Below are positions 53,388 through 56,254 of a stretch of 64,000 bases of DNA, one piece after another. The stretch is from an uncultured bacterium. GTDB lineage: Bacteria > Cyanobacteriota > Vampirovibrionia > Gastranaerophilales > Gastranaerophilaceae. The stretch lies in NCBI GenBank assembly GCA_902761735.1, contig CACWLL010000006.1, forward strand, positions 62,001-126,000. Direction: 5' to 3'. The translations under genes were made by a program, and so were the position numbers. Position 1 is the first letter of the stretch. Every line of letters starts with the position of its first letter. Under the pieces are notes generated by a model. The model was not told where the DNA came from. It did no database searches and saw only the letters and a program-made list of their open reading frames with translations.

Positions 53388-54077
53388 TTACTTGTTTTTG
53401 TTAAATTTTTCGTATAAATCCGGACGGCGATTTTTTGTGCGTTCAATGGATTGTTTCAATCTGAATTCGTTTATTTCTTTGTGATTTCCGTTTAAAAGAA
53501 CATCAGGAACTTTTAGTCCCCTGTATTCTCTTGGGCGGGTGTAGTGCGGGTATTCCAACAGTCCGTTTGAAAAACTATCCTCATCCGCAGACTCAATTTT
53601 ACCCAAAGTTCCCTCTAATTTGCGGCTAACTGCATCTATTAAGCATAGAGCGGGCAGCTCCCCGCCTGTTAATACAAAATCTCCGATTGAAACTTCGACA
53701 GGTTTAATAATATCTCGTATTCTCTCGTCAAAGCCTTCATAATGCCCGCACATAAGTATTATCTGTTCAAATTTTGCAAATTCATTTACCATCTCATCAG
53801 TTAATGGTTTACCCTGTGGAGAAAGCATTATAGTCAAAGATTTTGGCGATTTTTCAATGCTTTCATACGCATCGACATAGGGTTGTGCCATAAGCACCAT
53901 TCCTGCCCCTCCGCCGTATGGTATGTCGTCCACCTTTTTATGTTTGTTTTCGGTGTAATCTCTGGGATTTGTTGTTTGGATTTCAATGATACCGGCATCA
54001 ACAGCACGCTTTAGTATGCTGTATTGAAAATAATTTTCAACCATATCGGGAAATAGTGTCATTATATTAAAAATCAT
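53388..54077 (-). CDS. trmD: tRNA (guanine37-N1)-methyltransferase
   Basis: A 229-residue SPOUT methyltransferase. The deep trefoil knot motifs are ILMCGHYEGFDERI, EVSIGDFVLTGGELP and the start MIFNIMTLFPDMVENYF. It overlaps the rimM stop by four bases (ATGA), a common pairing in translation operons. The transcript order is 54595 RGG gene, rimM, trmD. rpsP and rplS are absent from this cluster. Confidence 0.96.
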   Translation of the reverse strand: MIFNIMTLFPDMVENYFQYSILKRAVDAGIIEIQTTNPRDYTENKHKKVDDIPYGGGAGMVLMAQPYVDAYESIEKSPKSLTIMLSPQGKPLTDEMVNEFAKFEQIILMCGHYEGFDERIRDIIKPVEVSIGDFVLTGGELPALCLIDAVSRKLEGTLGKIESADEDSFSNGLLEYPHYTRPREYRGLKVPDVLLNGNHKEINEFRLKQSIERTKNRRPDLYEKFNKNK

Positions 54078-54592
54078 TCCAGCAAACCCTCTAAGTTATT
54101 TATGAAAATTGATTTTTTTTCTAGAGAAACTTCTTTTATAATTGCTTCTACAAACGGTACTAAACAGATTCTTTTGGAATTTGTTTTAACAGACAGTAAA
54201 TCACTGGCTCCGTTGTTGGAAACTCCTACGACAAAACCCAGCTTTTTACCATTTTTATCAAATAAGCTCATTCCTACAAGTTCATCGATTAAATATTCAT
54301 TTTCATCAAGATTTTCTCTTAAAAAACTTTCTTCAACAAAAACTAATGCTCCCTTGTATTCTAAAAGCTCATCAATGGAATTTATTCCTTCAAATTTAAA
54401 AATTGCAGTATTCTTATGAATACGTACTCTTTCAACCTTGAAAGGTAAATATTCATCAGGATTTTTTTTGATAAAAACCTTTTTTAATCCCAATATAAAA
54501 TCTGCCTGACTTTGAGTAAAGCCAACTTTTGCTTCTCCTTTAATTCCGTGAAAATTTAGAATTTTACCGACAGAAATATATTTTTCATTCAT
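54074..54592 (-). CDS. rimM: 16S rRNA processing protein
   Basis: A 172-residue ribosome-maturation factor that binds S19 during 30S assembly. The N-terminal barrel opens YISVGKILNFHGIKGEAKVG, and the PRC-barrel domain has YLIDELVGMSLFDKNGKKLG. Starts 2 nt after the preceding gene's stop and overlaps trmD. Confidence 0.94.
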   Translation of the reverse strand: MNEKYISVGKILNFHGIKGEAKVGFTQSQADFILGLKKVFIKKNPDEYLPFKVERVRIHKNTAIFKFEGINSIDELLEYKGALVFVEESFLRENLDENEYLIDELVGMSLFDKNGKKLGFVVGVSNNGASDLLSVKTNSKRICLVPFVEAIIKEVSLEKKSIFINNLEGLLE

Positions 54593-54594
54593 AA

Positions 54595-55650
54595 TTATTC
54601 TTCAGCAGGTTCTTCTTCAGCTGCTTTCTTAGGTTTTCTTCCACGTTTAGGCTTTTCTTCTTCCGTCGGTTCAGGAGTTTTTTCAGCTGCTTTTGCCTGT
54701 TGATTTTTAAATTCTTCAGGAGCATCTTCTCTTTCCTGATTCCAACGTTGTAATCCCATTTGGGATCGAATTAAACCTATACCAACGTGAACACGCCATT
54801 CATCCATTTTTAATTGCGCCGCAATAATTTTGTGGCAACCGATTGGAGGTAACGGTAATAAAGGTTCATATAAGTTTTTAATTGCAAACATCTGATCCGG
54901 AGTTATTGCCAATTTACGTTTAGGGAACGGCAATTTCGGTAACATCATTTTTTGTCTTACAAGATTTATACCGAAAAATACTTTTCTTGGTTCTAAACCG
55001 ATTTTTTCTCCGATAACTTCGTGTGCATCAGGGTTAGGCAGCGGTAACATAGCTTTGTAAAGAAGTTCAATTTGTTCTAATTGCTCCTTACTTACTAATA
55101 ATTGTTTAGGTGCCTTATTTCTGTTCATAGGGCGTTTATTGTTAAACCCGCCTCTGTTAAATCCGCCACCCTGAGGGCGTCTGTTGTTAAAATTATTTCT
55201 GTTGTATCCGCCTTGTTGCGGTCTGTTCTGACCATAGCCACCACGGTTAAACCCGCCTTGATTGTCACGCCTTTGATATCCGCCTTGACGGTTTTGATTA
55301 TATCCTCTGTTATAGCCGCCCTGGTTATCACGTCTTTGATATCCGCCTTGACGGTTTTGATTATATCCGCCTTGTTGGTTATATTGGCGTTGTTGAGGTC
55401 TTGGACGACCTTCTCCGGCACTATAACTGCTATAGAACTGAGGTTGTGTTTCCGTACTATAACCGTTTAACGGTTCTTCTTGCGGAGCTTCAGGAGATTC
55501 CGCAGATGTATTTGACACTGCACTATCTTCTTCTGATGTCGCATTTATCATCATTTTCTTATCAGGATACAAACAATCCGGACATATAACTCTTTTGGGG
55601 TTTTTTGTCTCAAATTCTCGACCGCACTTGACGCATTTGTTTACATACAT
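54595..55650 (-). CDS. Zinc-ribbon, RGG-rich protein with duplicated C-terminal domain
   Basis: A 351-residue protein of unreported type to me. Residues 1-30 form a zinc ribbon (Cys6, Cys9, Cys23, Cys26). Residues ~75-180 are Gly/Arg/Asn/Gln-rich with NRQGGYQRRDNQGG units, like RGG RNA-binding regions. Residues ~185-305 contain two copies of a ~60-residue domain: (L/I)(L/T)(V/P)xxQxxxIxxLYxxxLPLP...H...I...VxxGIxLxR. The tail is KRGRKPKK, an AT-hook-like basic patch. It heads the rimM-trmD operon, suggesting a ribosome or RNA role. AAGAGG precedes the ATG. Confidence 0.8.
   Translation of the reverse strand: MYVNKCVKCGREFETKNPKRVICPDCLYPDKKMMINATSEEDSAVSNTSAESPEAPQEEPLNGYSTETQPQFYSSYSAGEGRPRPQQRQYNQQGGYNQNRQGGYQRRDNQGGYNRGYNQNRQGGYQRRDNQGGFNRGGYGQNRPQQGGYNRNNFNNRRPQGGGFNRGGFNNKRPMNRNKAPKQLLVSKEQLEQIELLYKAMLPLPNPDAHEVIGEKIGLEPRKVFFGINLVRQKMMLPKLPFPKRKLAITPDQMFAIKNLYEPLLPLPPIGCHKIIAAQLKMDEWRVHVGIGLIRSQMGLQRWNQEREDAPEEFKNQQAKAAEKTPEPTEEEKPKRGRKPKKAAEEEPAEE
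55264..55372 (-). repeat. In-frame direct repeat encoding the RGG units
   Basis: A ~60-bp unit is repeated twice; the blocks at about 55264-55308 and 55324-55368 are almost identical, encoding NRQGGYQRRDNQGG twice. Copy number could vary by slippage without breaking the frame. Confidence 0.75.
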
Positions 55651-55816
55651 AATAAATAAGCCTCTTAATTAAAAAAATAATTCATAAATATAATACAACT
55701 GGTTTAAATTAAAAAAATCTTTATTATTCCTCTGTGTGAAAAACTAAACGATATATCTTAACGTAATAATTATAACATGAATTTTAAATTTAATCAAGAT
55801 GTAAAATTATTTTTAC

Positions 55817-56254
55817 TTATTTTTCCACTAAAAACGTGACGGGGCCGTCGTTAATAAGGGATACATCCATCATAGCACGGAATTTTCCGGTTTCGGTTTT
55901 TATGTTATTTGCTCTAATGCAATCTATGAAAAATTCATACAGGTTTTCTGCAATATCCATTGGTGCGGATTTATCAAAACTAGGGCGAGTTCCTTTCTTG
56001 CAATCTCCGCACAGGGTAAACTGTGACACTACAAGCATTTCTCCGTTGACATCCAAAAGGGATTTGTTCATTTTTTCATTTTCATCTTCAAATATTCTAA
56101 GGTTCACAAGTTTTTTTGCCAAAGCTTCGGCATTTGATTTTTCATCCCCTTTTTCAACCCCGAGAAAAACCAATATTCCTGTTCCTATTGAAGAATATAA
56201 TTGATTATTTATTGTTACTGACGCTTGTTTTACTCTTTGTATTAGTGCTTTCAT
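55817..56254 (-). CDS. dtd: D-aminoacyl-tRNA deacylase
   Basis: A 145-residue proofreading enzyme that removes D-amino acids (and glycine) from tRNA. MKALIQRVKQASVTIN, QFTLCGDCKKGTRPSF and the C-terminal LINDGPVTFLVE (with the cross-subunit Gly-Pro-like NDGPV motif) are diagnostic. Monocistronic or weakly linked to the RGG operon; a ~170-nt A/T-rich gap separates them. Confidence 0.95.
   Translation of the reverse strand: MKALIQRVKQASVTINNQLYSSIGTGILVFLGVEKGDEKSNAEALAKKLVNLRIFEDENEKMNKSLLDVNGEMLVVSQFTLCGDCKKGTRPSFDKSAPMDIAENLYEFFIDCIRANNIKTETGKFRAMMDVSLINDGPVTFLVEK

Follow-up and report, generated by a model that had tools for sequence, protein, structure and literature searches.

The window, the whole 64,000-nucleotide stretch of DNA analysed here, encodes on its reverse strand a protein that we call ZRH (Zinc ribbon, R/G-rich, Homeodomain-like), a label coined in the present analysis. 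The first-pass annotation had the coordinates and strand of the reading frame exactly right. From N to C terminus the 351-residue product consists of a zinc ribbon, a disordered stretch, two copies of a domain, a RWNxxRxDxP motif and an acidic/lysine tail carrying KRGRKPKK (Table 1). The gene occurs in a single copy per genome. The window's copy matched no named Pfam or NCBIfam family above cut-off, no RRM domain was detected in it, and a phmmer search of the full-length protein against the PDB gave no match. A literature search found nothing on ZRH or on homeodomains within Vampirovibrionia.

Table 1. Features of the ZRH locus (nucleotide positions refer to the window, residues to the ZRH protein)
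Feature	Position	Strand	Residues and details	Basis
trmD	53388..54077	-		
rimM	54074..54592	-		
ZRH gene	54595..55650	-	351 aa	ORF reading and relatives
Tail motif KRGRKPKK	54625..54648	-	335-342; AT-hook-like	Sequence; relatives compared
Conserved RWNxxRxDxP motif	54718..54747	-	302-311; after domain 2	Family alignment
Homeodomain-like domain 2 (predicted)	54745..54915	-	246-302; helices 251-264, 272-280, 284-297	Profile and model
Homeodomain-like domain 1 (predicted)	54937..55101	-	184-238; helices 188-201, 209-217, 221-234	Profile and model
Disordered R/G/Q/N/Y-rich stretch	55111..55413	-	~80-180; GG[Y/F] repeats	Composition
Zinc ribbon	55573..55635	-	6-26; Cys 6, 9, 23, 26, FETKNPKR between the Cys pairs	120 sequences
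Extended ribosome-binding site	55661..55670	-	AATTAAGAGG	Leader comparison
Conserved leader element	55723..55732	-	GAGGAATAAT; in unstructured AU-rich leader	91 leaders
Promoter	55769..55797	-	TTGATT-17 bp-TATAAT, extended -10 TG	Read from sequence
dtd	55817..56254	-	Upstream of ZRH, conserved promoter between	

ZRH heads the rimM-trmD operon, as had been proposed: the gene is preceded by a promoter of its own, and 2 bp separate its end from rimM. Within the window's family the order dtd-ZRH-rimM-trmD hardly varies, but rimM-trmD was never found beside ZRH in any other family or order examined. There, dtd stays near ZRH in one further family (f7), genes resembling sdaAB-sdaAA (serine dehydratase subunits) adjoin it divergently in f9 and f15 (8/8 loci: L141-L145, L147, L148 and L150), and elsewhere the neighbours are yebC-like genes, gatB-like genes or others; dtd was named by BLAST, and the other genes were judged from their N-terminal sequences. 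Because the rimM-trmD link is confined to the window's family, the operon context says little about the function of ZRH, and the suggestion drawn from it of a role in ribosome assembly or tRNA modification finds no support. Although nearly all loci of that family keep the four-gene block, we consider such a role very improbable given the different neighbours elsewhere and the gene's own promoter.

The -10 region of this promoter is conserved in the family. The leader is ~115 nt long (within 55651-55797), and a GAGGA element lies mostly 60-90 nt before the start (~70) in 92% of 91 leaders, compared with 2% after shuffling. No consensus RNA structure was found among the leaders of relatives, and a regulon search with the paired leader pattern returned one copy in the genome, at ZRH only. 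Judged from sequence conservation, the GAGGA element is a candidate that could serve as an autogenous control site.

ZRH is a real, strongly constrained, class-specific family without a library name. Lineage specificity had been suspected from the window alone, and is supported by matches in 298 of 382 sampled Vampirovibrionia genomes and by none in the groups checked elsewhere. Among close relatives of the window's genome 49 of 57 were matched; almost every genome of the window's order has the protein, and it also occurs in three families outside that order, at core identities of 58-71%. The core profile found nothing among the listed photosynthetic cyanobacteria or the ZRH-less orders, and no relatives were found in phages, plasmids or viral contigs. 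Scanning a genome collection with patterns from the window protein gave at least 80 matches, and the titles that name a group mostly name the window's own. Over 78 loci that contain the gene neighbourhood, the ZRH core had a median identity to the window of 94% and the zinc ribbon one of 97%, compared with 66, 76 and 72% for RimM, TrmD and Dtd, respectively; at the seven loci with full Ffh, the core reached 98% vs 87% for Ffh. A dtd-ZRH-rimM-trmD block at 64-78% identity was also seen in L046, titled 'uncultured Brachyspira sp.', which is probably a mislabelled genome bin.

The duplicated domain of ~60 residues noted in the first-pass annotation is a true tandem duplication. The copies (residues 184-238 and 246-302) give a gap-free alignment of 55 columns with 33% identity, hhalign of the two domain profiles gave a probability of 98.6 (E=6.6e-16), and 0/5000 shuffles reached the score of the pair. 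A basic arm, PKRKLA, precedes domain 2; the linker has a net charge of +4, and the core pI is ~9.8 across the whole family.

For this core a tandem homeodomain-like helix-turn-helix fold is predicted. The Pfam Homeodomain model (PF00046) was matched by 19 of 25 diverse ZRH family cores; against its gathering cut-off of 22.9 bits the best relative scored 29.3 bits (E=7.5e-07), the second 22.9 and the window's core 19.3, under the cut-off. Profile searching of all PDB sequences returned homeodomains only, at weak E-values (0.31-0.42), with Nkx-2.1 spanning the full domain 1. AlphaFold2, run on the family alignment, modelled two three-helix units with pLDDT ~90 in most helices, whose lengths are homeodomain-like (10-23, 31-39 and 43-56, then 73-86, 94-102 and 106-119 in core numbering), and domain 1 alone again gave a three-helix unit. 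When the modelled pair was searched with Foldseek, the top hit was the double homeodomains of DUX4 (6e8c, E=0.013, probability 0.98), followed by tandem engrailed and then by the archaeal CRISPR-repeat-binding protein 2lvs, all with marginal E-values. The low TM of the pair against DUX4 stems from a relative placement of the two units that is either different or not settled in the model (pTM 0.50). Domain 1 by itself matched mostly homeodomains (TM ~0.4-0.6), with the weak E-values that are to be expected of ~60 residues. A viral fold library yielded scattered, uninformative phage proteins at marginal E-values.

ZRH shares with homeodomains (PF00046) and DUX4 (6e8c) a three-helix fold, predicted in its case, with similar helix lengths and spacing, and with DUX4-type double homeodomains a tandem pair joined by a basic linker. 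Unlike these proteins it contains an LPLP loop, is bacterial, and has its core flanked by a zinc ribbon and a G/R-rich stretch. The Cbp1-type archaeal protein (2lvs; Foldseek E=0.14) is, as predicted for ZRH, a prokaryotic tandem helix-turn-helix protein, but sequence similarity between the two was not found in the PDB profile search, and to our knowledge it has no zinc ribbon or low-complexity stretch. In homeodomain position numbering, core positions 16, 20, 26, 40 and 45 together with R53 fit the register. The W48-F49-x-N51-x-R53 signature is replaced by G-I-N-L-V-R in domain 1 and G-I-G-L-I-R in domain 2, so that R53 alone is kept. As W48, F49 and N51 are missing, we call the ZRH domain homeodomain-like and not a homeodomain.

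Instead of a basic face, the recognition helices of ZRH present hydrophobic residues (FF, L). Their invariant or nearly invariant hydrophobics are F-F in domain 1 and W, H and V in domain 2. The zinc ribbon named in the original reading, predicted from sequence, has two Cys pairs that are invariant through the family, and the pattern C-x-K-C-x3-FETKNPKR-x2-CP-x-CL is essentially invariant among 120 family members. No Pfam ribbon model exceeded its cut-off on it; the best zinc-ribbon family match was archaeal-type RNA polymerase subunit P (E=0.005, far under the cut-off). Taken with the ribosomal-protein-like conservation of ZRH, these features could describe a partner of the transcription or replication machinery, in which ribbon and hydrophobic helices contact a protein such as RNA polymerase and nucleic-acid binding is secondary. 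We regard this as unlikely, since the ribbon matches are all sub-threshold and generic and the basic core and linker favour nucleic acid.

The stretch between ribbon and core had been described as RGG-rich. It is indeed an R/G-rich low-complexity stretch (G 16, N 15, Q 13, R 12 and Y 8% in the window's ZRH), but the window protein has just two RGG triplets, which lie far from each other, against nine GG[Y/F] units, and among relatives (120 sequences) the RGG count is 0-6 while GG[Y/F] is the recurrent unit. RGG-rich is therefore a loose label, and the closely spaced RGG repeats of an RGG box are absent from the window's ZRH. As in RGG-box and FUS-like eukaryotic low-complexity proteins, Arg and Tyr recur in a G/Q/N-rich context; in contrast to those proteins, RGG is rare and scattered, and GG[Y/F] dominates. 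Both the length and the composition of the stretch vary among relatives. The KRGRKPKK tail, correctly noted in the window protein, varies as well: the 120 sequences have KRGRKPKK, KRGRPKK (few) or nothing similar (many). The window's tail lacks the AT-hook core R-G-R-P.

Cyanobacterial Rbp proteins consist of an RRM and a glycine-rich tail (PMC9333190). They come from the same phylum as ZRH and likewise have a glycine-rich stretch adjoining a nucleic-acid-binding domain (predicted in ZRH), but they have the RRM fold, lack a zinc ribbon and are nearly absent from the window's order. RRM proteins were found in 1 of 24 sampled genomes of that order, in 10 of 15 other ZRH bearers and, among class members that lack ZRH, in 16 of 17 genomes; the window's genome has none at all. 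A cold-shock domain was found in 1 of 16 sampled class genomes, and cold-shock proteins in 0 of 5 sampled genomes of the window's order. The scarcity of both protein types in the window's order keeps an RNA-chaperone reading of ZRH open. HU, by comparison, was present in all 16 sampled genomes; hence ZRH has no missing nucleoid protein to stand in for, and ZRH as an HU replacement was rejected.

The homeodomain-like helix-turn-helix is best known as a DNA binder, while some members bind rRNA or mRNA (the ribosomal protein L11 C-terminal domain, which binds rRNA, and bicoid). The fold modelled for the duplicated domain agrees with the earlier proposal that it is of a nucleic-acid-binding type. 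That RNA would be the target is only half undercut: the operon link was not seen beyond one family and the repeat appears homeodomain-like, yet some such folds bind RNA. ZRH might be mainly an RNA-binding protein, a chaperone or ribosome-associated factor that replaces glycine-rich RRM and cold-shock proteins and whose units bind structured RNA like the L11 C-terminal domain. The RRM and cold-shock counts, the resemblance of the Gly/Arg/Tyr-rich stretch to that of the Rbp proteins, the very slow evolution of ZRH, its conserved unstructured leader with a possible autogenous control site and its co-transcription with rimM-trmD in one family are consistent with this. We nevertheless find it doubtful as the main role: ancestry confounds the RRM pattern and could by itself produce it, with few independent losses behind it; RRM proteins persist in eleven ZRH genomes; no family but one showed the rimM-trmD link; and homeodomain-like folds mostly bind DNA.

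Our preferred reading, put forward tentatively, is that ZRH is a class-specific nucleic-acid-binding architectural or global factor with a tandem homeodomain-like core and with duplex DNA as its chief target. DNA is favoured because of the predicted fold, the basic linker and the AT-hook-like tails that some family members carry. The Gly/Arg/Tyr stretch, the scarcity of cold-shock and RRM proteins and the ribosomal-protein-like conservation speak for RNA, and we place DNA slightly ahead with low confidence. Proteins so strongly constrained are more often bound to the ribosome or RNA polymerase, which counts against a DNA-architectural role. Also weighing against our reading are the window core's Pfam score under the cut-off, the marginal Foldseek E-values and the pTM of 0.50, the missing W48-F49-x-N51, the hydrophobic recognition helices and the occurrence of HU in every sampled genome.

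We infer DNA as the main target, a multivalent mode of assembly and a global role as follows. The two units, joined by the basic linker (PKR-LA), would hold neighbouring segments of a duplex, most probably of genomic DNA, and the N-terminal zinc ribbon would dock onto nucleic acid or a partner. Weak multivalent contacts could come from the G/R/Q/Y-rich linker as well as from the AT-hook-like basic tail, and through them ZRH may serve as an abundant factor in DNA architecture or global regulation that possibly concentrates its target in condensates. In a bolder version, to which we give little credence, ZRH with its FUS-like stretch would form the condensates that chiefly organise nucleic acid in Vampirovibrionia, and would replace the missing RRM and cold-shock proteins of the gut lineage.

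Should the core indeed function as a double homeodomain-like unit, an arrangement best known from animal regulators would do housekeeping work in a class of bacteria, and a Gly/Arg/Tyr-rich disordered protein, possibly of condensate type, would become accessible in a compact genome. The gut relatives of cyanobacteria have an apparently important, predicted nucleic-acid-binding protein that has so far gone unstudied.

In the ZRH-less orders, the search for zinc-ribbon-only relatives returned just a weakly similar MerR-type protein. It occurs in families f8 and f13 (L194-L197, L208-L211), which lack ZRH, and combines CQTCxKxFEHxNPxLRDC with a conserved RRLERPDLPE C-terminal domain. Its ribbon (C-x2-C-x3-FEHxNPxLRDC-x2-C; L194-L197) resembles that of ZRH weakly (E 0.009-0.04), and both proteins have a helix-turn-helix, predicted in ZRH, and low-complexity stretches. 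Unlike in ZRH, the helix-turn-helix is an N-terminal MerR domain, and the C-terminal domain is different. The MerR-type protein was found in 0 of 29 genomes of ZRH-bearing families; weaker MerR-type relatives are present in families f10-f12.
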